A stretch of DNA of 57,430 bases. It comes from Pseudomonadota bacterium (GTDB lineage Bacteria; Pseudomonadota; Gammaproteobacteria; Arenicellales; UBA868). The notes beneath the pieces were generated by a model. It was given only the letters and a program-made list of their open reading frames with translations, ran no database searches and was not told where the DNA came from. The translations under genes and the position numbers were made by a program. Positions 25,540 through 56,437 of this stretch are shown here, in pieces; the first letter of the stretch is position 1, and the number at the start of each line of letters is the position of its first letter. Location of the stretch: assembly GCA_016845525.1 (NCBI GenBank), contig JAERSQ010000243.1:1-57430 (forward strand). The letters run 5' to 3'.

Positions 25540-25568
25540 GCACGGCATAAGACCGAAAATAAAAGAGG

Positions 25569-25641
25569 CTGGGGCGGCAGGACTCGAACCTACAACCTCC
25601 TGATTAACAGTCAGGCGTTCTGCCAGTTGAACTACACCCCA
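25569..25641 (-). tRNA. tRNA-Asn (anticodon GTT)
   Basis: The minus strand folds into a complete cloverleaf: a seven-pair acceptor stem (TGGGGTG with CGCCCCA, one G-T pair), a D arm, an anticodon stem CCTGA/TCAGG around the loop CTGTTAA (anticodon GTT), and a T arm with GGTTCGAGTCC. The discriminator base is G, usual for bacterial tRNA-Asn. The 3' CCA is not encoded. It lies at the end of the leftward operon, in the gap where the two transcripts meet. Confidence 0.95.
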
Positions 25642-28935: not shown

Positions 28936-31449
28936 TCATACTTCACTCCATCGTTGTCCAATGTCGGCTTCTGCTGTGTAGTCGAGCAATGCCCCACGTT
29001 TGCGGCGTCGGTTCATCGCTGTCTCAAGAATCTCGGCAGCTTCTTCCGCCTTATCTTCGGGCACCTCAAGGTAAAGGGCATCGTGCCCGTGGTTGATTAG
29101 CCACTCCACGGGGATGGTCTTCCCTCCCGGGCAGAGAGCCGAAGTTGCAAACCAATCTTGGGGGCCGTAAACGAGTTCAATCATCCCCTCGTTTACGATG
29201 GAAACTCCACCAGACTGGATGGGGTGATTCACAAGCTCGTTGATTTTATCCTCGTTACGGAAATACCTCCGACGACCCCAGAGCGTATCGCCAATAAAGC
29301 CCTCTCTTCGATACTTGTTCTCAATCATTCGCCACCACTTTGGAATCTCGGGGTCGGCGCGTTTGAGCCCTTCGACGACTTGCCTCACGTCTTCCAGGGC
29401 AAGGTGAGCGAAAATCAAGTTGCCCGTGTCGTCCTCCACAGAGACAACCTGCTCGTGGATTCTCTTGGTCGAAGCTGCGTATTGCCAAGCATAGCGGCAG
29501 TTCTTAGTAATGTCCCGAGTGCTCTTGAATGTACCTTTTCCCTTCTTCCTGCGCTCCTCGGGTGCCCCGGGCAAAGACCAAACCTCCTTCCCATAGATGA
29601 CTTCCATTGTCTCATTGTGGGGGTCGAGTCCCTCATTGATGATTCGGAGGGAATGCTGCGCGTTCGCCTCCTCGGCAATCAGGCGTAACTCCAACTGGTC
29701 CATGTCTGCTCCGACGAGGACATATCCTTCCCGGGCAATGAAGATGTCTCGGAGGGACTTAGGGATATTCTGCATATTTGGATTACTTGAAGAATATCGG
29801 CCTGTTGCGGGGAGCCTGTTGTAGCAGGGGTGGACCCGCTTGATTCCTTTTTCAATCAAAGGTCGGACGTAGGTGCCCAGGAGTTTTGTTACCTTTCGGT
29901 ACGACCGAACGGAACGCAAGAACACTTCCCGTTCTTTACTCAGCCCATAGTGAACAATCATCGTGCGGAGAGTCTCGTCATCTGTACTTGGGTCCCCGGT
30001 CTTCTCCGAGTAGTGATGAGGAGCGAGCCCCCAATCATCGAACAGGAGCTTCGCCATTTGGCGTGTGCTTTGGGGATTGAACTTCTGTCCGGCAACACTT
30101 TTACATACAGCAAGCTGTTTCTTTGCTTCCGTGTCCAAGGTGAACATGTGTTCAGCAGCGCGTTCCTGGTCTACCTCCATGCCTACAGATTGCATATAAG
30201 TACCGAGTGACTGGAGCGTGTGCTCCCTGGACAAGAGGTGCTGTTGGGAGCGCCGCTTTACGTCTCGCATAAGCGGCTTTGCAATCCGGGCCGTAACGCA
30301 AACATCCTTCCCACAATAAATGTGTAACTCTTCGTCGGTCTTTGCTTGGACGGCGGTGTGGTCTGCCTTCCACGCTTCCGGGTTATCTGTGTAAAACGAC
30401 CCGACAAATCCAAGATTGTGGGGAAGCTCATTGTCAGCGAGAAGATGGAGAAGAATAGTGTCTGCGGCCAAAACTGGACGAGCCCGCAACCACTGTTCCA
30501 TGGCCAAACGGTCATACTGACCAGCGTTGTGGCCTATGAGGGGGGTGCCGGGAGTTGAGGCAAAGTCACGGAGAATATCTTTGACCTCCTCCTCCCTCTC
30601 CGGGCTAAGAAAAGGCGTCCCGTCGATACTTCTGATTTCGACAACCAGCGCCTCATCTGCGTTACCGATTCCAACGCATCGGACCTTCGCTGTCATGGGG
30701 TCAATCCCATCAGTCTCCAGGTCGTAAGCAATGGGTTTCCCCACCCGGGCAAGATGAGCCAAGATGGCGCTGATTTCTTTGGGGTCTCGGGACCGAGTTA
30801 TTTTCGGCTCTTTCCAGTCCAGATTCCCCGCGAAATATTTGAAGGCTTTCGCCAAGTCGTGTCTGAACACTTCTCGGTATGCCTGCTGGCGAATCACAAA
30901 CGCGGGGTGCATGGTGTACCCTACTTTCAAGACGACTTCCGGGTCCCAGGGAGCGACGACATCCTCGCATCCCCCTCGGATATTCATAATAGAGACATCG
31001 CCACCACGGATGGCTTTCGCCGCCGTCTTGCCCAGGCAGATGATGTTCGTGATTCCAGTTGCTTTTAGCTCCTCGTACAGGAGGCTTTTACATGCATCAG
31101 CCGGACGTTTGAGCAGACGCGCTTCCGTCTTCTCCTCCCGGGCCTTCTTCTCGCGTCGGCGGTTAGTCCGCGAGACACGGATGTTTACGGCGTCCAAGTC
31201 GTTCTTGGGCGGTCGGCACCGGACCGCATTCGTGATGTGACACTCATCGCGGCGCACGTCGATTGCGTTCAACGCACGCTGAAGCTCAAGCCCCGACGGG
31301 CCAACGAAGGGGCGGCCTTCAACGGTCTCGTGCATCCCGGGTGCTTCTCCCAAGAGAATCACTCGGTCCTCACTGTGCGTTTCCGCCAGCACCGGCTCGC
31401 CGGTCTGACCCGCTTTGAGCGGGCAGTTATCACATGTTTTACAGTACAT
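28936..31449 (-). CDS. Uracil-DNA glycosylase / DNA polymerase A fusion
   Basis: 837 residues from ATG 31449; a TTG at 31461 falls in the T run of a hairpin. Residues 1-220 form a family 4-type uracil-DNA glycosylase: GEAPG near 34, GRPFVG, RCRPP near 78 and HPAF near 181, with four Cys (about 6, 9, 78, 120) that fit a [4Fe-4S] cluster. A 3'-5' exonuclease follows (DLETD near 243, YCGKD). The polymerase has motif A DMDQLELR and motif B R-x3-K-x3-Y, with Tyr at the Phe762 position of E. coli Pol I. Motif C reads HDA where HDE is usual. It copies the phage genome and may remove uracil. Confidence 0.9.
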   Translation of the reverse strand: MYCKTCDNCPLKAGQTGEPVLAETHSEDRVILLGEAPGMHETVEGRPFVGPSGLELQRALNAIDVRRDECHITNAVRCRPPKNDLDAVNIRVSRTNRRREKKAREEKTEARLLKRPADACKSLLYEELKATGITNIICLGKTAAKAIRGGDVSIMNIRGGCEDVVAPWDPEVVLKVGYTMHPAFVIRQQAYREVFRHDLAKAFKYFAGNLDWKEPKITRSRDPKEISAILAHLARVGKPIAYDLETDGIDPMTAKVRCVGIGNADEALVVEIRSIDGTPFLSPEREEEVKDILRDFASTPGTPLIGHNAGQYDRLAMEQWLRARPVLAADTILLHLLADNELPHNLGFVGSFYTDNPEAWKADHTAVQAKTDEELHIYCGKDVCVTARIAKPLMRDVKRRSQQHLLSREHTLQSLGTYMQSVGMEVDQERAAEHMFTLDTEAKKQLAVCKSVAGQKFNPQSTRQMAKLLFDDWGLAPHHYSEKTGDPSTDDETLRTMIVHYGLSKEREVFLRSVRSYRKVTKLLGTYVRPLIEKGIKRVHPCYNRLPATGRYSSSNPNMQNIPKSLRDIFIAREGYVLVGADMDQLELRLIAEEANAQHSLRIINEGLDPHNETMEVIYGKEVWSLPGAPEERRKKGKGTFKSTRDITKNCRYAWQYAASTKRIHEQVVSVEDDTGNLIFAHLALEDVRQVVEGLKRADPEIPKWWRMIENKYRREGFIGDTLWGRRRYFRNEDKINELVNHPIQSGGVSIVNEGMIELVYGPQDWFATSALCPGGKTIPVEWLINHGHDALYLEVPEDKAEEAAEILETAMNRRRKRGALLDYTAEADIGQRWSEV

Positions 31450-31464
31450 TGGTTGGGCCAAAAA

Positions 31465-35530: not shown

Positions 35531-38191
35531 TCACCCATTTCCGGGCAGTGATATTTGAGCAATACGCTCAAGCAAGCGAAGGCTTGCGCCTTCAGATTCG
35601 TCAACTCCTCCGAGCGCACCCTCGATTTCGTTCGCCGCAGCGTCCTCAGCGATTTCTCCGACGTGGGGGAGCTTGTCCAACAACAAGTCAGCGACATGCT
35701 CGTCAGCAGTCTGCCGAGCTATCACATAGGACACCAGGACGGGTCTCTTCTGCCCGAGGCGGGAAAACCTCCCCTCCCATTGGATGACTTTATCAGGAGT
35801 CCAAGGGAGCATGGAGATTAGTGCGAGGTCTGTGTCTTGCAAATCTACGCTTTCACCCCAAGCATCGCCCGTTCCAACCAGTAGGGCCGCGCCCTCCCGG
35901 GCCATGTACTCATTGCGGATGGTGTCTCGGTCACTCGGGTCAGTGCCCCCGTGTGCCCACCACATTTCGGCGTCGATGGCTGAAGCAGTGACGGCTTTGT
36001 TCAATCGGGCCGCAAGCCGCTCGCAATCAATCCTACGGCCAGTAAAAACTACTACCTTCTGGCCTGACTTGAGCGCGGTAATAACTCTGTCCTCGACGTA
36101 CTTGTGCTTCCGGGACGCAGCCTCCATGAGCAGCGTTTCGAAGTAGCTCTCCCGGGCTGATTCGTCGCCGCCGCTCGCCGCTTTCGCTGCCCGGGCAAGG
36201 TCACGCTTCATCGCGGAGGGTTTGTTCTGTTCTGCCAAAGACAGGCGCACGACTTCCCTGCGTTTCTTGGGCAAGTGCTTGTTCACCTCTTCCCGCTTCA
36301 CTCGGCACTTCACAAAGCCCAGGCGGTCACGGAGTTCGTGGGCATTACTCAACCCGTTGTACTCGTAGCCGTAGCCATTGTGTTGCCCAGCGCAGTTGTG
36401 ACTTCCGAGCCCGTCTGTGATGAAGTTGCCGGTTTCGGTTTTGATGCACGCAAGTTCTCCCGGGCCCATCGGTTCGATGCGGACAATCTTGTCATAGCCG
36501 GGAGCACCGATGTGGGCACGTCGGGGGGAAGAGTCAATCTTCCGAATCAATGCTGGCCGTACTGTCCCGAAGAATCGAAGCCTTTCCCAAGTACCCCCTC
36601 GGATGTAAATAGCCTTTTCACTTGCGGTGTAGGTGAATCCCCACACTTCAAGAGCAGTCTGAATAAACTGCCAAATCTTAGGGTTGACTCGCCTATGCTG
36701 TGCGATGACATTCTGCGAGCCCTCGGCGTCGTAGATGCCCGCGAGCCACCCTCGGCAAAACTCCTTCTCGGATTCCCGAGGAAGGACGATATCCTCATAG
36801 GCGGCTTTCGTGTAGAAGCCCAGACGGTATATGCCATCTTTCTGCTGCACGATAGGGCGTGGAGCCCAAGACAGGGCTTGGGCGTAGCCATGTGCTCTTT
36901 CCAGGTGGGGAAGTTCTTTGGCGTGGGCTGTGACGCTTCTCCTCAGTCCTCGGCTCGATTCCGAGGCTCGGACGTGGCCATCGCCGTCGACGAGCCCTCG
37001 GAGATAACCCCGCATGTACTGCTCGCCCTCCTCAGGTTCGGGTAGACGGGCAGCGTCGTAGCCCAAAGGGATGATGTGCTTGATCGGCCTGCGCCACTTC
37101 TGCCGGTGCATTTCTGTGAACAGAGGCATGTAGGGTCGCTTAGAATGGGGATGGTAGTTCACCCACCATTGGTGATCGGGGGAGCATACAACTGTTTTGC
37201 CGGATTCCAGGTGGACACGAACACGAGGGCCTTCAACCCGAAAGGTTTCCAGAACCTTTGTAGGATGGACTGCACGGTTCTTTTTCCCGTGGTCCCGACC
37301 CCATCCCATGACTTCATCACCAACTTGAATGTCAGCTATTGCGCGGTAGGTGCCATCGGCCATGAGTACGGGAGCTTTGGGCTCCAGACAATACCTCATC
37401 CCAAACTGGAAGAAGGAACCCCACTGCCAGGGCTCGACCAAATCGAGTTGAGTCCACAGGTCGCGCACTCTGCCCGGGATGGGAGTGGCTGTGAGGCCGA
37501 GCTTTCGGGCGGCAACCTCGGCAATCTGCCGGGCAGAATCCAAGGAGTTCCCGAGGCCCTCGTAGCGAATGCTCCCGTCCTCCAACACCGTAGCTTTCGT
37601 ATGCTTGGGGCGACGGAGCCAGTGAATCTCATCCCACACAATCACCTCGGGCCGAAACGCCACGAGCGCTTCACGCCAATACTTGATGGTTTCCCATGCG
37701 GTGATGTAGAGAGTGTCTTCCCGGAGTTCTATTCCACCACGCGGGGGTGTTTGGCCCAGCAGTAGCTTAGGTTTCAGGGTCGTGTATCGCTCGCATTGTT
37801 CTGCCCAAGTCCCCCGGGCCGCAGCCTTGGTGACGATGAGCTTTGGTCCCGTACCCGCTACAGCACACGCGTAGACCAAACCCACGAGAGTCTTGCCTGC
37901 TCCAGGCGGGGCCCAGACGTGCCCCCCGGGCACAGCGAGGGCTTTGCGGAGCAACCTTTTCTGGTGGTCCTTTGCGAAACCACGCAGGTCTCCCCGCAGT
38001 AGTTCACCCGAAAGCGCAGCGGCAATCGTGCCGTCTCCGCACACTCCAGCGACAGGAGAACCCCAACCAATAACTGAATGGGCGTTCAGTGGTACTCGGA
38101 ATCCCCGCCCGCTTTTGTTCTGCCAGATACCAGGGATGTCTTCGGCACCGGGAGGAACACTCCCAGTGAATACAAATGTTTTGTTGGGCAT
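35531..38191 (-). CDS. SNF2/SMARCAL1-like helicase with intein
   Basis: 886 residues including an intein at 268-599. The host protein (554 residues after splicing) has Walker A APPGAGKT, a DEIH box (VIVWDEIHW), GLTATPI as motif III and a C-terminal 'R-x-x-RLGQ' motif VI. The joined sequence across the intein, RYC-x-G-x7-Y-x-G-x-SN, matches the conserved SMARCAL1-like block. It is an SF2 translocase that probably remodels replication forks. Start ATG follows the AAAGGACC leader. Confidence 0.85.
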   Translation of the reverse strand: MPNKTFVFTGSVPPGAEDIPGIWQNKSGRGFRVPLNAHSVIGWGSPVAGVCGDGTIAAALSGELLRGDLRGFAKDHQKRLLRKALAVPGGHVWAPPGAGKTLVGLVYACAVAGTGPKLIVTKAAARGTWAEQCERYTTLKPKLLLGQTPPRGGIELREDTLYITAWETIKYWREALVAFRPEVIVWDEIHWLRRPKHTKATVLEDGSIRYEGLGNSLDSARQIAEVAARKLGLTATPIPGRVRDLWTQLDLVEPWQWGSFFQFGMRYCLEPKAPVLMADGTYRAIADIQVGDEVMGWGRDHGKKNRAVHPTKVLETFRVEGPRVRVHLESGKTVVCSPDHQWWVNYHPHSKRPYMPLFTEMHRQKWRRPIKHIIPLGYDAARLPEPEEGEQYMRGYLRGLVDGDGHVRASESSRGLRRSVTAHAKELPHLERAHGYAQALSWAPRPIVQQKDGIYRLGFYTKAAYEDIVLPRESEKEFCRGWLAGIYDAEGSQNVIAQHRRVNPKIWQFIQTALEVWGFTYTASEKAIYIRGGTWERLRFFGTVRPALIRKIDSSPRRAHIGAPGYDKIVRIEPMGPGELACIKTETGNFITDGLGSHNCAGQHNGYGYEYNGLSNAHELRDRLGFVKCRVKREEVNKHLPKKRREVVRLSLAEQNKPSAMKRDLARAAKAASGGDESARESYFETLLMEAASRKHKYVEDRVITALKSGQKVVVFTGRRIDCERLAARLNKAVTASAIDAEMWWAHGGTDPSDRDTIRNEYMAREGAALLVGTGDAWGESVDLQDTDLALISMLPWTPDKVIQWEGRFSRLGQKRPVLVSYVIARQTADEHVADLLLDKLPHVGEIAEDAAANEIEGALGGVDESEGASLRLLERIAQISLPGNG
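36395..37390 (-). mobile_element. Intein with LAGLIDADG endonuclease (helicase)
   Basis: 332 residues. It starts at Cys 268 (CLEPKAPVLMADGTYRAI) and ends at GLGSHN, with Cys as the next residue, so all splicing residues (Cys1, His-Asn, Cys+1) are present. The two LAGLIDADG motifs, LRGLVDGDG and LAGIYDAEG, keep their acidic residues, so the homing nuclease could be active. It is inserted inside the conserved RY-C block of the helicase, a site that tolerates no scar, as typical of inteins. Confidence 0.85.
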
Positions 38192-48272: not shown

Positions 48273-48731
48273 TTACTGATTGAGCATTTCCAGGATTTGG
48301 GCCTTGGAAAGCCCGAGCGCAGCAAGCTTGTCAATGCTCGCTTTTGCTTCGCGCTCTTTCCGTGCTTTCTCGCGTCGCGCTTTTTCCTTTGCGCCAATCT
48401 GGCCCATATCGCTCATGGCGTGTTCGACCTTTCGCACGTCACGGTCGCTCGCGATAACCGCGTGAAGGGAGACAAGCTCTTCTCCACCTACGCTGAAAAT
48501 CCAGCGCTTGCGCTCCGCGTCATACTTGCGCGAGACGTTCCGAGCGCTCGCAATGACGACGTGCCCAGCCTGTTGGGTTTCCCAGTTATTCGCATTCACG
48601 TCTACGGTTTCACCATCACGCTCTGTCGTAGTCGCCCCACGGACGGGTTTAACGAGCGTTAGGGTTGAAAGCTCTCCCGAAACGAGCGGAGCAACTTTGC
48701 GAGCGGTTTTTTCTACATTTTTAGCTGACAT
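48273..48731 (-). CDS. First gene of the leftward small-gene operon (152 aa)
   Basis: 152 residues, ATG behind AAAGGACCAAAAA. The N-terminus is basic (MSAKNVEKTARKVA). A beta-rich middle (GHVVIASARNVSRKYDAERKRWIFSVG) is followed by a strongly charged helix (KEKARREKARKEREAK) and a helical end. The charged helix may bind nucleic acid or proteins. Being first behind the divergent control region, it is probably an early gene. Confidence 0.55.
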   Translation of the reverse strand: MSAKNVEKTARKVAPLVSGELSTLTLVKPVRGATTTERDGETVDVNANNWETQQAGHVVIASARNVSRKYDAERKRWIFSVGGEELVSLHAVIASDRDVRKVEHAMSDMGQIGAKEKARREKARKEREAKASIDKLAALGLSKAQILEMLNQ

Positions 48732-48807
48732 TTTTTGGTCCTTTGGTTTTGGCCACTTGGGAGAATCCCACTGGCTAAGTACAGACTAACATTCTGAGGT
48801 TTGTTTG

Positions 48808-48850
48808 TGTCAAGCAAATGTCAAGGGAATGTCAAGCAGATGTCAAGGGG
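48808..48850 (-). repeat. Four TTGACA repeats, 11 bp apart
   Basis: On the plus strand TGTCAAG occurs at 48808, 48819, 48830 and 48841, one helical turn apart; the minus strand reads TTGACA each time, the -35 consensus. Two further copies with the same spacing lie before the nuclease gene at 35.2 kb. They are likely binding sites for a phage regulator or origin protein, or stacked -35 elements of the early leftward promoter. Confidence 0.6.
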
Positions 48851-48864
48851 CAAGGGGGGGCTAT

Positions 48865-49285
48865 CCTCGCTCCGCTCGCTCACTACGTTCGCTCGCTCCG
48901 CGAGGTTGTTTTCCGCTACGCTCGGTGCCCTCACGCTAAAGCGCTCGGGCTTCGCCGTAGCTCCCCCTCCGGGGGGCTCCGGGGTAACGCGCTCGCTGGT
49001 CGCTCGCACTCACCCCTACTCGGGCACGCGTTCGCTATCGCTCACTATGTGTGCCCACTGTCGCGCGGTACGGGGCTACGCCCCTACGCGCTCCTCGCTC
49101 CCCTGCGGTCCGCTCCCCTCCGGGGGTGTGGATCCGGCAAGCCGGGGGGCCTCTCCCTCACGGTCGAGGGCTCGTTCGCTTCGCTCCGCGAAGCTCACTC
49201 GGACGACACGAGCTACGCTCGTGCTCTGCCCTCTTGGGCGCTCCGCTCCCTCCGGTCGCTACGCACCCATCCCCGGCTCCGCCGG
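48865..49285. repeat. Dense array of small hairpins
   Basis: The region is non-coding and packed with short perfect stems that mostly have TCC or TAC as loop. Examples are CCTCGC/GCGAGG (48865-48905), CCCCC-TCC-GGGGG (48963-48975), GGGGC-TAC-GCCCC (49072-49084), CCGGC-AA-GCCGG (49134-49145), GCTTCGC-TCC-GCGAAGC (49178-49194), CACGAGC-TAC-GCTCGTG (49207-49223) and CCGGC-TCC-GCCGG (49273-49285). Long open frames here have low-complexity products and no binding sites. It lies at the divergence point of the two programmes. Confidence 0.7.
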
Positions 49286-49309
49286 TTCCGGTTCCCGGTT
49301 ATACCCCCT

Positions 49310-49368
49310 CTTTCACGCGAGACTATTTTTTGGGGTGACTAACAACTTCTCTCTCACGCGAGACTATT
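49310..49368 (+). promoter_or_regulatory. Tandem 18-bp direct repeats before the packaging operon
   Basis: CTYTCACGCGAGACTATT occurs at 49310-49327 and 49351-49368, 41 bases apart (about four helical turns). The second copy ends 16 bases before the ATG of the gene at 49385. These repeats are probably the promoter or activator sites for rightward late transcription. No regulator is known. Confidence 0.55.
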
Positions 49369-49384
49369 CAAGTTATCCTGCGGT

Positions 49385-50365
49385 ATGCCTGGAAAGAAGA
49401 AGCCGAGAAGGACGGATGCGTGGACGGAGTTGTTGAGGACTCCGGCTTTCGCGAAGCCGGAAGGGAGGGGGCAGAAGAAGTTGCCTCCGAGGACGAAGTT
49501 GGCGCATGTGCTCTTGGGTTTGGGTTTGCACCCACCGATTGTGCTGGGGACGCGTACCTTCCCCGGGCAGAGGAAGGACGAGGGGAACCGGATTCGCAGT
49601 ACGATTGCGAATAATGCGCTGTTCGCGAGCAGTGCGTTTGGGGTGACGATGGGAGTGGCGCATCAGGATTGGACCCCCCGGGCAAAAGCAGCGTTCAACC
49701 TGGAAGACCCGCCGAGTCCGTATGAGGTGGCTACTTATACGCTGGGGCAGTATGGGCTGGGGACGCCAGCGCCGTTTTCTTCAGCCACCCGGGCAAAGAA
49801 GCCGCACGCGACGAGAAGGTTTTTTCAGGGGATTGCGGGTAGAGCACCGAGGTTGCACACGAGTGCGTTTATGTGGTGGCTGATTGGGGTGGGGGATGAG
49901 GCGATAGAGGAGGTTATTCCTGGGTGGGAGCAAGTGCGGGCGGATTATATTCGGGTGCTGATGGAGACGAGTTCCTTTGCGATGTGGGCGCTGGGGGCGG
50001 ATTTGACGCCTATTGTGAGGTCTCCGCGCCATGCGCGGGCGCTGTTGACTGAGGACGTGGAGTTCAGGGCCGAGCGCAAGGAGATATTTAGTAGTACATA
50101 TGTGCAGACACTCCTCCGCCTGGGCAAGAGAGCCAGACCCGTCAGCCGCGTACTGCCAACTCTGTCTCCGGTGTACGCCACGATGGCGGAGAAGGAGCAG
50201 ACGGAGTTCTTATTGCCAGAGATTTGGCAGGGGGAACTCGAACGAGTCCGTGGGAATATGTGGTGGAACGTGGTAGGACTGAAAATGTACCCCAATCGGA
50301 AGGAGCGCATTCAGCACCGGGATGGGGGATTTACGTTTCAGTTGGAGGGGAGGAGAGTATTATGA
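49385..50365 (+). CDS. Packaging-operon protein with deviant codon use (326 aa)
   Basis: 326 residues; it opens the rightward packaging operon. The N-terminus is very basic (MPGKKKPRRTDAW); hydrophobic helices follow (LAHVLLGLGLHPPIVLG, FMWWLIGVGDEA). Its codons end mostly in G (TTG, AGG, GCG, ACG) while the other late genes prefer C endings, so it may have been acquired separately. It overlaps the next gene by ATGA. Its place next to terminase suggests a packaging or head role, but no motif supports this. Confidence 0.45.
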   Translation: MPGKKKPRRTDAWTELLRTPAFAKPEGRGQKKLPPRTKLAHVLLGLGLHPPIVLGTRTFPGQRKDEGNRIRSTIANNALFASSAFGVTMGVAHQDWTPRAKAAFNLEDPPSPYEVATYTLGQYGLGTPAPFSSATRAKKPHATRRFFQGIAGRAPRLHTSAFMWWLIGVGDEAIEEVIPGWEQVRADYIRVLMETSSFAMWALGADLTPIVRSPRHARALLTEDVEFRAERKEIFSSTYVQTLLRLGKRARPVSRVLPTLSPVYATMAEKEQTEFLLPEIWQGELERVRGNMWWNVVGLKMYPNRKERIQHRDGGFTFQLEGRRVL

Positions 50366-50940
50366 ACGACGATCTGGACGAAGTGCTCGATTTACTCGAC
50401 GCGGAGGACGACGTTCCGCCCGTGGAACTAACGAGGACTAATGAGTCGTCAGGTACTCCTTCCTCTGGGCTGAAAAGGGGCGAAAAGGGACCAACGAAAA
50501 GCCAGGTTGAACCTGGACAATCAGCGATTGTTCCTGCTCCTGACGACAATCAAAGTCTACTGAGTGTTGAGGCGCTTCAGAAGTTGGCTGCTGATGCTGA
50601 GTATAACGAGCAGAGCCTACCTGCTTCCTTCCTCTCGAATGCCGCGCCGCATTTGCATAACACCCATGGAATCGTTGATTTCGCTACAACCGTTTGCCTT
50701 GCTGTAGCGAGGGGAGAGATTCAGATAAAGCAAAGTGCTGAACTCCGCAAGTGGGCCGAACTAATGTATACCTGTGTGGTGGCTTCTCAACCTAATCAGA
50801 ATAATGTCCAAGTGAACTATGTGGAGCAGTTGATTCAGCTTGCCGGAGGCGAGGAAGCAATGCAACCCGAAGTTCTTGATGTCCGAGATGCCATTACTGC
50901 TTCTCACCCAACACCCCGCAAAAAAGCTCAGGGTGAGTAG
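50362..50940 (+). CDS. Terminase small subunit candidate
   Basis: 192 residues from ATG 50362, behind GGAGGGGAGGAG. An acidic N-terminus (DLDEVLDLLDAEDD) is followed by a Ser/Pro-rich linker, then helices including LRKWAELMYTCVV and VNYVEQLIQLAGGEEAM. Small-terminase proteins are usually placed directly before the large subunit and oligomerise through helices like these. There is no obvious HTH at the N-terminus, so the call rests mainly on position. Confidence 0.45.
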   Translation: MNDDLDEVLDLLDAEDDVPPVELTRTNESSGTPSSGLKRGEKGPTKSQVEPGQSAIVPAPDDNQSLLSVEALQKLAADAEYNEQSLPASFLSNAAPHLHNTHGIVDFATTVCLAVARGEIQIKQSAELRKWAELMYTCVVASQPNQNNVQVNYVEQLIQLAGGEEAMQPEVLDVRDAITASHPTPRKKAQGE

Positions 50941-53756
50941 TGAGCCAAGCGAACGCAGCACAGCTACTCAACACGCTCCGTTCTCCTGCCCGGGCACTCC
51001 AGGCATTTGGGGAGGTGCATGATCAGAGGACGGGTAGGTTCATAAAATACAACCCTACGGCGATTACCCACGAACTTCAGCACGCGGTTCTCGACTACAT
51101 GTCGAATACTCCGAGGCTCCCGACGGGCGAGACCGTTTTCCTCTCCCTTTTGGGCTACCGTCAGGCAGGAAAATCCCTCACTACGGAGTACGCAGCCTAT
51201 TGTAAAGCAGCCTTCATCCCGGGCTGGGACCATGTATGTATCGCCGACAATCGTGACCGTGCGGACTACCTCCACAAACGTGTTCACTATTTGCACCAAA
51301 GGTGGCCGGAATCGTTGCGTTCCAAGTCAATGGCTACCCGAGAGAGTAGGCAGCTTACCTTTGACCCCCTCCAGGGCGGGAAGATGCGTGTCCTCTCCGC
51401 AGAGTCGGGAGCGGTCGGTGTCGGTCAATCACCCGATTCCTTCCACGCTTGCCTTGGCAAAGGGACAATGGTTCTCTGTGGAGAGACAGGAGCCCTCCGA
51501 CCCATCGAAGAGTTTCGAGTAGGAGACTTGGTCCGAACTCACTCTGGGCAGACTGCGCCGATCACCTACATCTCGTCTAAGGAAAAGATGGCGTGGAGGG
51601 TGAAGCTCTTCGGATTCGCGGAGCCGCTCACCGTCACTCCCGAGCATAAGCTTTGGACCAATCAAGGGTGGCTCACCCTCCAGGAAGTGGCTGAACGGAA
51701 GGCCCGAGTGGGGTTTCCGATCCTTCGCCCTTCCGGGCAAGTGCGAGAACTCCCGTTCGAGCAGCCAGTAGTCGAGCGCCCACAAGGAGGAGGCTCCAAT
51801 GAAGTTGGGATCCCCGAGACTGTTCACCTAACCTATCCCCTGGGCAAACTTGTCGGCCTCTACTTGGCTGAGGGCTCGATGCACTCTGAGCGGTCGGTGA
51901 CCTTTAGTGTTCATTGGGATGAGGTAAGCCGAACAGTCGACTGGCTCGATGAGGAGCGGTTTCTATTCACGAACGCCACCTTCAACTTCCGGGCAAACTC
52001 ACAGACCGCGACGGTGTACGTTTCTGGGCGCTCCTTCGCCCACTTCCTCCGGAATCTCGTAGGGGAAAAGGATGAGAAGAGATTCCCCGATAGATGGTGG
52101 GAGATGCCCGAGGAGTTCGTTCGGGGAATCGTCCATGGCTACCTTTCGGGTGATGGGCACTCGAATAAGCATAAGTACAATCGGAGGATCACGCTTACCT
52201 CGATTCGGTCGGCTACCATCACTGGACTTCGGGATGCCCTGGCTGGCCTGGGCTACGGGTGGGGCACAATCCGCAGGCGGAAGGCAGGGAATCACTATGG
52301 CCGTAACTGTCAGGAAGCCTGGATTCTCGATCTTTGCGGTTCAGGGGTAGACCGACTTGCCCGGGACCTTGGGTGGGAGTCACCTCCTCGAACACGCCGG
52401 GGTGTAACGAAGAACTGGAATCTGGAAGAGGATGGGGAGCACGTCTGGGTAGCAATTCAAGACGTGCAGCCTCTCCCTGGACTCCAAGAAGTCTATGACT
52501 TTGAGGTAGGCCACGAGGATCATAGCTACTGCCTCGCCCACATCGCTGTGTCCAACTCGGAGGTTCACCTCTGGTCAGACTTCTCGGGCTCCATGTTCCT
52601 TATCAACCCGTCGCTCATCAACAGGCGAGAGGCACTTGTTGTCTTCGAAGCCACCCCTTGGGAGCGAAACTGTGCTTGGCACGACCACTATGTCATGGCC
52701 AAACAGGGTTCAGGACGCCATATCGCGAAGTTTTTCCCCTTCTGGGACGGAAAACTCAACGCACGGCCCACCCCAAAGGACTTCCAGCCCACAAACGAGG
52801 AGGTTGAACTCCTAAACAGGTACCAATCCTTGGGCCTAACGACGGATAACCTTACTTTTCGGCGATTCATCATGGACACGGACCCCGAGGTCCGCCGAAA
52901 TCCCGAAATGTTCGGGGTGATGTACCCATTTGACGACCTCTCGTGCTGGATTGCGTCCGCAAATGCCGCGATTCCCCAACATTGCCTCGAAAAACACCTC
53001 AAGAAAGAGCTTCAACCCTGGTCTGGGCCGTATATGGAGTACGAAATGCCCGAAGCGGGGGCGATTTATGTGATTGGAGTCGATCCGAGTGGATATGCGG
53101 CCCGAGACCACGCCTCTTTCCAGGTTTTGAAGTGCTGGAAGGACGAATGGACGCAAGTTGCGTCCTTCGCGGAGCATATTGACCCCCTTTCCTTCACAAA
53201 TCAGCTTCTTCGGGCCGCGAATCGCTATAATCAGGCCACAATCTGCGTAGAGAGCAATGGTGTGGGCCAATCTGTGCTCGCATTGCTCCAAGAGCGCGAT
53301 TACCGTAATGTTTACTATGAAGCGCGGTTCAAGCCCGGATTCACGAGCACATCCAAGTCTCTTGACCAAGCAACAGGTTGGTTGATTGATGGATTGCTCG
53401 ACGAGCTTGTCCTGAACGACCGGGATCTGCTGGAGCAGCTTCAGACGTACAAGAACGACAAACGCACGGAAGAAAGCCCAGCCTCGGAGATACTTCGAGG
53501 TGCTTCCAGCAACAAACGCCGAGATCGACATCACTGGGATAAGGTTTCTGCGCTGTTGATGGCTGTAGTCGCTGCCCGCCGGGCACCTGTCCGCGAAAAG
53601 CCCGGGGCAAACCTCAAAGGTCCCGACGAGAATGTGATTATGTTCACCGGCATGAGTTACGATGAGCAGGAACACTACCGCAAGAAACTCGCGGAAGATA
53701 AACAACCCACTCGGAAAAAACTGTCTTATAGGTCTGTCCGTAAGAGGAGACGCTGA
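50940..53756 (+). CDS. terL: Terminase large subunit with intein
   Basis: 938 residues including an intein at 171-539; the mature protein has 569. The ATPase has Walker A GYRQAGKS (71-78), and the sequence joined across the intein, DSFHA-SEVHLW, is the Walker B region with its catalytic Glu. The C-terminal RNase H-like nuclease shows IGVDPSG near 713, ICVESNG near 770 and HHWDKVSALL near 865. GTG start after TAG, as in a coupled operon. It packages the DNA into the capsid through the portal encoded at 54596. Confidence 0.9.
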   Translation: MSQANAAQLLNTLRSPARALQAFGEVHDQRTGRFIKYNPTAITHELQHAVLDYMSNTPRLPTGETVFLSLLGYRQAGKSLTTEYAAYCKAAFIPGWDHVCIADNRDRADYLHKRVHYLHQRWPESLRSKSMATRESRQLTFDPLQGGKMRVLSAESGAVGVGQSPDSFHACLGKGTMVLCGETGALRPIEEFRVGDLVRTHSGQTAPITYISSKEKMAWRVKLFGFAEPLTVTPEHKLWTNQGWLTLQEVAERKARVGFPILRPSGQVRELPFEQPVVERPQGGGSNEVGIPETVHLTYPLGKLVGLYLAEGSMHSERSVTFSVHWDEVSRTVDWLDEERFLFTNATFNFRANSQTATVYVSGRSFAHFLRNLVGEKDEKRFPDRWWEMPEEFVRGIVHGYLSGDGHSNKHKYNRRITLTSIRSATITGLRDALAGLGYGWGTIRRRKAGNHYGRNCQEAWILDLCGSGVDRLARDLGWESPPRTRRGVTKNWNLEEDGEHVWVAIQDVQPLPGLQEVYDFEVGHEDHSYCLAHIAVSNSEVHLWSDFSGSMFLINPSLINRREALVVFEATPWERNCAWHDHYVMAKQGSGRHIAKFFPFWDGKLNARPTPKDFQPTNEEVELLNRYQSLGLTTDNLTFRRFIMDTDPEVRRNPEMFGVMYPFDDLSCWIASANAAIPQHCLEKHLKKELQPWSGPYMEYEMPEAGAIYVIGVDPSGYAARDHASFQVLKCWKDEWTQVASFAEHIDPLSFTNQLLRAANRYNQATICVESNGVGQSVLALLQERDYRNVYYEARFKPGFTSTSKSLDQATGWLIDGLLDELVLNDRDLLEQLQTYKNDKRTEESPASEILRGASSNKRRDRHHWDKVSALLMAVVAARRAPVREKPGANLKGPDENVIMFTGMSYDEQEHYRKKLAEDKQPTRKKLSYRSVRKRRR
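51450..52556 (+). mobile_element. Intein with LAGLIDADG endonuclease (terminase)
   Basis: 369 residues from Cys 171 (CLGKGTMVLCGETGALRPI) to Asn 539, followed by Ser as +1 residue. Block B reads TPEHK; LAGLIDADG motifs LVGLYLAEG and VHGYLSGDG retain the acidic residues; block F is VYDFEVGHEDHSY. The C-terminal residues are AVSN, so the usual penultimate His is Ser. It interrupts the Walker B region of the terminase, so packaging depends on splicing. Confidence 0.85.
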
Positions 53757-54342: not shown

Positions 54343-54596
54343 TGGCACAAGACGAGACCCCGATTGAAACTCCCCTGAAGATGCTCCGGCAGCAAGTAAT
54401 CGAAAAGATTCAAAAGCAGAGCCGAGACGCCCGCCAGCAAACGCAGGCCGATGTAGCCGAGGGTGCGACAACTGAGCCTCCCCAACCGACCGCTGGCTCT
54501 CAGACCCCCCCATATATAGTAGCACTCGAAAGTATCTCTCCTGGCGCTCCCGCAGACGCCCCAGTAGAGCAGGAATACAGTGAGGGAGAAGCATAA
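54342..54596 (+). CDS. Small helical protein before the portal (84 aa)
   Basis: 84 residues. A helix (LRQQVIEKIQKQSRDARQQT) is followed by a disordered Pro/Thr/Glu-rich tail. Coupled to both neighbours by TAATG-type overlaps. It may be a portal or scaffold partner. Function unknown. Confidence 0.5.
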   Translation: MAQDETPIETPLKMLRQQVIEKIQKQSRDARQQTQADVAEGATTEPPQPTAGSQTPPYIVALESISPGAPADAPVEQEYSEGEA

Positions 54597-56437
54597 TGCT
54601 AACGACGAAGCAGATTCAGGGGTTGATTGATACCCACAAGGCAAAGTCCCATTTGGACCAACGGAAATGGGACCAAGTCCGCGCTTGGTATACCAGCGAG
54701 TCCGCACTCACTACTGGGGATGTTCCCCAGGGAGCGGGCTCCCCGTCCGGCGAATCTGAAGACCTTTCGATGGAGACGAACTATCCCTACGCCTTCGTAG
54801 ATACGATGGTCGCGAACATTTGCCCAAACAACCCCGAGGTTACGGTCAATGCCCGCCGGAAACAACTCCACGAGCCAGCGAAATACCGGCAAGCCCTTAT
54901 CAATGACACCCTCAGCCGAGTAGACGCCCACCGGATTCTCTGGCGTGCCGCTACGATGGCGAGTGTTTATCCCCGCTCTTTTGTGAAGACCGTCTGGAAC
55001 TTCCGCAAGCGTTCCCCCGATTTCCTGGTCTGTGACCCCCGATTTGTCTGGTACGACATGACCGCCGAACGGTGGGAAGATATCCGATACCTCATTGAGG
55101 TCACGGTGCTTACGCGGGATGACTTCAACTCTCGGGTCAAGTCGGACGGCAAGAAGGACCGAGCCTACGATGCCCGGGTTGCGGAGAAAAGCCAGTTCGG
55201 CGCTTATCCTGAGTGGCTCCGAGACCGGATGCAGGACCGGAATCTGATGAACGACTCCTCGAAGGAGGTGTTCGAGTGGGTCACGGTCTATGAGATTTAC
55301 GACTTCTCTGGCGACGGTCGGTACTACCACTTCCTCGAAGACGTAGATGAGCCTCTATTCGCTGGGGACCTCCCCTACCGATTCGTTCGGAATCCATTTC
55401 ACCGAGTTGCCTTCAACGATAATCTCCAAGACATCGGCGGCTTGAGCGACGTAGCGTTGATTGCTCCAGTCCTGGAGAGGCTCAATGAGTTGGATACGCT
55501 GATGCTCTGGTTTGCCCAGACCAGCATTCCGATTACGCTCCTCAACTCCGGGCTGTGCGACAACCCCGAGCGGGTGCGGTCGCAACTACGCAACTCCACC
55601 ACCCCGGGCTCAATCGTCGAGATTGCCGGAAAGGCGAACGCAAGCATTGGAGACATCATTGGGCACACCCAAACCCCAAGCCTCTCCCCCGAGTTCATCG
55701 CAACCCGAGACCGTTGCATCCAAATCATCGAGTTTATCCTGGGTATTCCCCAGTATTCTCGGGGAGTTGTCGGTGTCAGTGATGTGGCAACCGAGGTCGC
55801 CCTCGCGGATACTGCGACGAGGACTCGTAATGGTCGCCGCCAGAAGGAAATCTACGACCTCATCGGGTGGCAGGCCCAAGCCATCACCGGGCTCTACGAG
55901 GAGTTCCTCGCGGACGACGAGATTCTCCCGGTTCGCCTCCTGGGCCAGTCGGAAATGATTGAGATTACTCGCGCTTCGATGCTTGCCCGGGAGGTTCAAG
56001 CTGCGAAGGGAGAGGACCCCCTGGAGTATGACTACAACGCTGTTGCCTACTCTCCCACTGAGAACAACAGGCTCGTCCAGTTGCGTAACCTTCAGCAGTT
56101 CTTCCCTCTGCTTTCTCAGTCCCCGGATGTAAACCAGAGCGCACTCACGCGTAAGTTGCTGGAACTCCTACAGATGGAAGACATCATCAAGGACGAGCAG
56201 CAGCTTGCAGCGGAAGCCCAGCAAGCCCAAATGCAGGCCCAGCAAGCTCAAATGCCTCAACCTCAACCCGGGCAGGGAGCCGGAGACACAATCGCAAGTG
56301 GTGCTCTCCCCCCGGGCAGTGAGCCCGTGATGCCTCCGCTCCCGGGCGGAGTCGGTGCCGGAGGTGGGCAGAGTCCGCTTACGGGATTTGGCGGCGCTCC
56401 TTTTGACCTCAATCCTGACATTCCAAGGAATCAATAA
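54596..56437 (+). CDS. Portal protein
   Basis: 613 residues, behind GAGGGAGAAG. It follows terminase and precedes the scaffold and coat genes, the classical order. The helical N-terminus leads into the conserved phrase 'YPYAFVDTMVANICPNNPEV', typical of portal proteins, then 'PRFVWYDMTAERWEDIRYLIE' and the long helix near 460-520. The C-terminus is a Gln-rich coil plus a Pro/Gly tail. It forms the 12-mer DNA entry ring in the capsid vertex. Confidence 0.8.
   Translation: MLTTKQIQGLIDTHKAKSHLDQRKWDQVRAWYTSESALTTGDVPQGAGSPSGESEDLSMETNYPYAFVDTMVANICPNNPEVTVNARRKQLHEPAKYRQALINDTLSRVDAHRILWRAATMASVYPRSFVKTVWNFRKRSPDFLVCDPRFVWYDMTAERWEDIRYLIEVTVLTRDDFNSRVKSDGKKDRAYDARVAEKSQFGAYPEWLRDRMQDRNLMNDSSKEVFEWVTVYEIYDFSGDGRYYHFLEDVDEPLFAGDLPYRFVRNPFHRVAFNDNLQDIGGLSDVALIAPVLERLNELDTLMLWFAQTSIPITLLNSGLCDNPERVRSQLRNSTTPGSIVEIAGKANASIGDIIGHTQTPSLSPEFIATRDRCIQIIEFILGIPQYSRGVVGVSDVATEVALADTATRTRNGRRQKEIYDLIGWQAQAITGLYEEFLADDEILPVRLLGQSEMIEITRASMLAREVQAAKGEDPLEYDYNAVAYSPTENNRLVQLRNLQQFFPLLSQSPDVNQSALTRKLLELLQMEDIIKDEQQLAAEAQQAQMQAQQAQMPQPQPGQGAGDTIASGALPPGSEPVMPPLPGGVGAGGGQSPLTGFGGAPFDLNPDIPRNQ

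Follow-up and report, generated by a model that had tools for sequence, protein, structure and literature searches.

Hairpins with a shared loop type fill the spacer between divergent replication and packaging genes in an uncultured phage genome

Results

Gene layout around the spacer

The window (the whole stretch of DNA analyzed, 57,430 nucleotides) is contig C243 of a bin and carries the genome of an uncultured phage. The leftward genes are replication genes, encoding a primase/helicase-like protein, a helicase with an intein, PolA with a UDG domain, and a Sak4-like protein. The rightward genes encode packaging and structural proteins, namely a terminase with an intein, the portal, the head, and the adaptor. 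The helicase at 35531-38191 also matches Hint/LAGLIDADG, the PolA-type DNA polymerase (28936-31461, minus strand) carries a fused domain of the uracil-DNA glycosylase superfamily, and a tRNA-Asn gene (25567-25641, minus strand) is located where the rightward and the leftward gene sets converge. No 16S gene was found in the bin, and the bin does not show the host, since phage DNA can be binned with contigs of an organism that the phage does not infect.

The hairpin array is held in a spacer of 653 bases that runs from the start codon of the first leftward gene (48731, minus strand) to the first rightward gene, p1 (49385). This layout confirms the original prediction that the array separates leftward and rightward transcription units. 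The features are listed in Table 1. For p1, no family and no solved relative was found, and Foldseek with its fold model (mean pLDDT 72.8) returned nothing at E <=0.001. The assignment of p1 as a small terminase or an initiator was dropped, having no family, structure, or Foldseek support.

Table 1 Features of the spacer and of the adjoining genes in the window.
Feature	Position	Strand	Description
First leftward gene	48273-48731	-	152 aa, no family match
Four TTGACA boxes (TGTCAA on +)	48808-48849	-	11 bp apart; left edge of array
Hairpin array	48862-49300		70% GC
Hairpin	48892-48904		5 bp, loop TCC on + (GGA on -)
Hairpin	48963-48975		5 bp, loop TCC on + (GGA on -)
Longer hairpin	49022-49056		Outer stem has homologs in L002 and L013
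Hairpin	49072-49084		5 bp, loop TAC on + (GTA on -)
Hairpin	49115-49125		4 bp, loop TCC on +
Hairpin	49155-49170		5 bp, 6-base loop; the non-triloop one
Hairpin	49178-49194		7 bp, loop TCC on + (GGA on -)
Hairpin	49207-49223		7 bp, loop TAC on + (GTA on -)
Hairpin	49273-49285		5 bp, loop TCC on + (GGA on -)
Conserved block	49262-49330	+	CATCCCC, ~25 variable bases, then TTATACCCCCTCTTTCACGCGAGACTATTTT
Second copy of block core	49349-49368	+	95% identical over 20 bases; window only
TATCCT, -10-like	49374-49379	+	5 bases before p1 ATG
p1, first rightward gene	49385-50365	+	326 aa; kept in relatives
Large terminase subunit with intein	50940-53756	+	Relatives skip residues ~171-539
Portal protein	54596-56437	+	Used in the scans for relatives

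Hairpin content of the array

At least seven perfect stems, placed back to back and mostly with the same triloop, had been noted. Between 48865 and 49285, exactly seven perfect triloop hairpins with a stem of at least 4 bp were found. The observation is thus real, but neighboring hairpins do not always adjoin, and gaps between them reach ~95 bases. The claim that the stems differ and the loops are alike was borne out, since all seven loops are TCC or TAC and all are closed by a C-G pair. When read on the minus strand, each of the seven triloops is GNA closed by C-G (C[GNA]G), which on the plus strand is C[TNC]G.

The array (48862-49300) was compared with 1000 dinucleotide shuffles of its own sequence. 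At a stem of at least 5 bp, six triloops are present and 6/6 are C[TNC]G; the shuffles contained 0.04 on average and 2 at the maximum, and none of the 1000 reached six. When all perfect hairpins with loops of 3-8 bases and stems of 5 bp or more were counted, the array contained seven against a shuffle mean of 2.6, a number reached by 4/1000 shuffles. The proposed check by structure prediction gave the same picture: the array folds better than the shuffles with RNA and DNA parameters on both strands, and by RNA parameters the effect is stronger on the minus strand. The z values for the RNA folding energy were -6.7 (minus strand) and -4.1 (plus strand), and those for the DNA folding energy were -2.7 and -3.1.

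The expectation that the array is noncoding also held. Open reading frames of 116, 163, and 163 codons cross it on the plus strand as GC-rich sequence permits, though no shared frame or peptide was seen when the translations from 11 regions were inspected by eye rather than by a formal codon test. Peptide likeness with the relatives was limited to the places where the conserved DNA block adjoining the array is itself kept. DNA similarity to the array region was not detected among 50,697 phage records, and the single 34-base match among plasmids was taken as chance.

Comparison of the spacer in relatives

No relative of the phage was found by DNA or portal protein among the same 50,697 phage records. 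The relatives used here are environmental viral contigs; a first portal scan gave 16 loci, and 80 loci were retained from the 137 matches of a deeper scan. One Myxococcales bin chromosome (L041, CP070713) was added. As a relative lying within a bacterial bin chromosome, it is a possible prophage and a clue to the host.

The spacer was readable in full in the window, L002, L003, L007, L010, L013, and L042, and in part in L004, L006, L012, and L017. For L040 and L041, the stretch before p1 or its counterpart was compared, and the left borders are not fixed. Because contig ends truncate L012 and L004, neither was counted as an absence. The spacer comparison did not include L011, a near-copy of L010, or L020-L039, most of which are duplicates or chance hits. 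In each of the seven fully read members, the site lies between divergent units, and the spacer length is 417-787 bases (7/7). This retention suggests that the spacer is useful for something. The contigs of L004, L006, L012, and L017 stop within the hairpin spacer or next to it; the hairpins perhaps break the assembly there.

Hairpins with a stem of 5 bp or more and a loop of 3-8 bases were counted in 12 regions, with 500 shuffles for each. The counts were exceptional in the window (7 against a shuffle mean of 2.6), L002 (8 against 2.4), L013 (13 against 2.9), L006 (10 against 2.6), and L007 (8 against 1.9), and each was reached by at most 2/500 shuffles. A moderate excess was found in L010 and L042, with five hairpins each, reached by 20/500 and 21/500 shuffles. 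The counts of L003, L040, L041, L004, and L012 were not exceptional, those of the first three being reached by 141, 106, and 102 of the 500 shuffles; L003 and L041 nonetheless fold better than their shuffles, with z ~ -4. A clean presence or absence of arrays, in which L007, L010, and L042 had appeared array-free from the energies of partial spacers, was dropped because the whole or nearly whole spacers of these three contain hairpins. As the proposed comparison in relatives showed, the same spacer is often hairpin-rich, and its sequence is rewritten. The worry that the array is a misassembly or a contamination does not hold, as hairpin-rich sequence is present at the same site in independently assembled relatives.

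The loop type was then counted in the same 12 regions. TNC triloops numbered six in the window, three in L002, three in L006, two in L013, one in L041, and zero in the seven other regions, among them L007, L010, and L042, whose hairpins have other loops. They are therefore frequent only in the window, L002, L006, and L013. When the arrays of the window, L002, L003, L006, L013, L040, and L041 were pooled, TNC made up 15/27 of the triloop hairpins (stem 5+) compared with 109/1743 elsewhere in the same set of loci, a background that includes near-identical loci (e.g. L010/L011, L067/L068, L074-L076). Without the window, the source of the idea, the fraction in the arrays was 9/21 (Fisher p ~3e-6, with hairpins and loci not fully independent). 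The orientation is mostly uniform in the seven arrays, with a TNC:GNA ratio of 15:2 on the plus strand.

Sequence turnover and paired changes

Hairpins common to the window, L002, and L013 can be recognized, with homology judged by eye from flanks and order, and their pairs are altered on both sides of the stem. In the outer stem 49022-49056, two pairs are changed on both sides relative to L013; in the stem 49072-49084, two pairs are changed on both sides relative to the L002 counterpart; and in the stem 49207-49223, one pair is changed relative to L013. The spacers of L003, L007, and L013 are greatly different despite a portal identity of 87-92%, which indicates that the turnover of the spacer is fast. 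The pattern of differing stems and like loops was also observed within another phage: at 3090-3200 of L013, three tandem hairpins ~43 bases apart share the loop TAAAC on three different perfect stems.

These paired changes keep alive the proposal of a structured noncoding RNA, or an RNA decoy, transcribed through the array. RNA folding also speaks for it, with minimum z values of -9.5 in the window (minus strand), -7.3 in L002, and -7.1 in L006, as does an identical 13-mer, GGGGGGGCTATCC, at the left array edges of the window (48854-48866) and L013 (2958-2970), which includes a -10-like TATCC and is a possible rightward -10 or a shared border. However, the array stems are almost purely Watson-Crick. 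G-U pairs are few on either strand, accounting for 6.6% (plus) and 6.5% (minus) of the predicted pairs compared with 12.1% and 10.2% in the shuffles. Only two single-mismatch stems are informative, and they give no strand signal because one is G-T and the other A-C. At gathering thresholds, Rfam matched only the tRNA-Asn in the window and gave no family for the array, a common global fold was not seen across six folded arrays, and the consensus promoter scan gave no promoter for the array. The decoy idea is weakened by these results, and an RNA function is unlikely.

Conserved block and promoter-like elements

Sequence conservation resides in a non-hairpin block beside the array and upstream of p1, whereas the letters of the array turn over. 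The block is kept in the p1 group wherever the site is readable, and the rough consensus of its 3' part in the relatives is TTATACCCCCTCTTTCACGCGCGACCATTTTTG. A block profile built from 11 relatives, which match it by construction, hit 13/87 records at E <1e-3, the other two being the near-copy L011 and, weakly, the truncated L017. A degenerate block pattern run over the viral collection found 12 stretches, eight of them in this phage group, including one on a contig not seen before, which encodes p1. The stretches in L020, L022, L023, and L028 were rejected as chance, having none of the phage proteins searched.

The block is likely a regulator site of the late promoter, judging from its placement and the nearby -10-like TATCCT. 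The p1 transcript start, as suggested by the position of TATCCT, would make p1 probably leaderless; the consensus promoter scan found no sigma-70 site.

A packaging (pac) signal was among the original suggestions, and a pac or cos site upstream of the packaging genes was considered. The array does precede p1 and the large terminase gene, and the adjoining block is strongly conserved. However, the conserved element is that block and the array turns over. In addition, matching contig ends were found in 3/4 near-full-length relatives, exact over 123 bases in L003 and as shared 25-mers in L007 and L040, with none in L010. The same sequence at both ends, with the block 4-11 kb inside, indicates circular or permuted genomes opened elsewhere. 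A packaging signal is therefore disfavored and very unlikely.

The TTGACA boxes at the other edge of the array may mark the leftward promoter region. Pairs of TGTCAA boxes with the same 11-bp spacing also occur in L003, L010, L013 (imperfect), and L042; stacked -35 boxes are one possibility for these elements and a regulator site another, and their 11-bp spacing is reminiscent of a Pho box. The same repeated boxes could be read as part of a phage replication origin with initiator or primase-loading hairpins. The divergent junction adjoins the replication operon (primase/helicase, PolA, Sak4-like), and the cumulative GC skew has a minimum near 46 kb and rises afterwards. However, the skew does not discriminate an origin because it also follows gene orientation, the boxes are TTGACA-like and fit promoters, and the hairpins vary in sequence and number among the relatives. 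An origin at this site is quite unlikely.

Discussion

The best explanation, a tentative one, is that the array is a DNA-level spacer of extrudable hairpins between divergent early and late promoters, perhaps one that buffers supercoils. Early (leftward) and late (rightward) promoters would flank a spacer filled with short perfect inverted repeats. Divergent transcription produces negative supercoils between promoters, which makes extrusion plausible here. As the spacer became strongly negatively supercoiled by divergent transcription, the hairpins would extrude, and C[GNA]G on the leftward strand would let stems of 5-7 bp do so at physiological negative supercoiling. The extruded hairpins would then take up supercoils and would likely isolate the two promoters from each other. 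In favor of this explanation are the uniform loop rule of the window's triloops, the TNC enrichment and strand bias across the pooled arrays, the almost purely Watson-Crick stems, the paired changes, the location between divergent units, and the finding that the array does not recur in the bin's other contigs.

The loop requirement comes from the promoter hairpins of phage N4, for which the C:G closing pair and the G and A at the loop ends are reported to be needed for extrusion from supercoiled DNA (PMC4496689). The original statement that no standard feature class fits the array was too strong, as C[GNA]G on the minus strand is that published rule. Short stems and a GNA triloop closed by C-G on one strand are common to both systems, and 7/7 array triloops with stems of 4 bp or more have such loops. 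In contrast, the array has six or seven clustered hairpins and N4 has three separate early promoters, an N4-type polymerase was not detected for this phage, and the GNA strand of the array is the template of the late rather than the early genes.

The likeness raises the question of whether the hairpins are N4-like promoters read by a virion RNA polymerase. The C[GNA]G loops, the stems of 5-7 bp, and the use of one strand, the template of the rightward operon ahead, would suit such promoters. However, the single-subunit RNA polymerase family was not matched in the window, and the single PF00940 match in the bin is on another contig. For the two largest proteins of the virion region (976 and 1961 aa), neither solved structures (E up to 1) nor Pfam and PHROG families (E 0.01) gave a match, and a search for relatives of the 1961-aa protein found none. 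An N4-type virion RNA polymerase was thus not found by family or structure matching, by which a very diverged one may escape. Promoters of this kind are extremely improbable here.

For the spacer of extrudable hairpins, template switching during replication is proposed to create the stems and restore their pairing, so that sequence is lost while palindromy is kept. Template switching is described as able to make and mend perfect stems with multibase paired changes (PMC8794818). The array shares the perfect stems and the multibase paired changes with those cases; they are RNA genes, whereas the array is clustered in one noncoding DNA spacer and is biased toward one loop class and one strand.

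The strongest rival explanation is purely neutral. In the long noncoding spacer of a compact genome, fold-back DNA would prompt template switching that makes and perfects hairpins again and again, GNA loops would be favored as the most stable fold-back, and the array would be a mutational by-product without function. The perfect stems and paired changes agree with the published description of template switching (PMC8794818), the fast turnover among relatives with nearly alike portals fits as well, and lagging-strand folding could give the strand bias. Against this stand the retention of the spacer in every fully read member and the recurrence of the hairpin excess at the site. The neutral origin is possible, yet less likely than the spacer of extrudable hairpins. 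It still counts against a functional DNA spacer that neutral template switching explains perfect stems without function, that frequent TNC triloops are confined to four of the regions compared, and that the hairpin numbers of L003, L040, and L041 do not stand out from their shuffles.

Other hairpin clusters were also considered. Bacterial REP/BIME sequences are clusters of extragenic palindromes, which is their likeness to the array. Unlike them, the array has no repeated unit, and its pattern is not amplified in the other contigs of the bin. GCTNCGC pairs gave 25 matches in the bin compared with 31 for the reversed control, and 9/25 are in the phage contig, all but one of them within the array. 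A genomic repeat of the bin is thus not seen, which removes this form of the contamination worry, and a host repeat was rejected as far as the bin, which may not be the host, shows. Intrinsic terminators are likewise GC-rich hairpins between transcription units; however, one terminator-like site was found in 48700-49450, the same as in shuffles, and terminators are unneeded at the array because the flanking units diverge. Narrow full-text queries of open-licence papers returned no description of an array of this kind, which is weak evidence of absence.

A further version of the supercoiling idea is a sensor. Divergent transcription or gyrase would make the spacer negatively supercoiled, the GNA hairpins would extrude from one strand, the host single-strand-binding protein would open the opposite strand, and these events would toggle early to late transcription at the conserved block. 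This version is improbable.

The array looks neither like a gene nor like any known signal, but like a structural DNA spacer. As such, it would exemplify palindromy, loop type, and strand recurring at one place despite sequence turnover, in a phage group that has no match in the phage records searched. The relatives provide a natural set of rewritten hairpin clusters with which selection and template switching can be tested as the keeper of perfect hairpins, and a test bed for whether extrudable hairpins insulate divergent promoters. If the array is neutral, it would be a warning against taking compensatory changes as proof of RNA.
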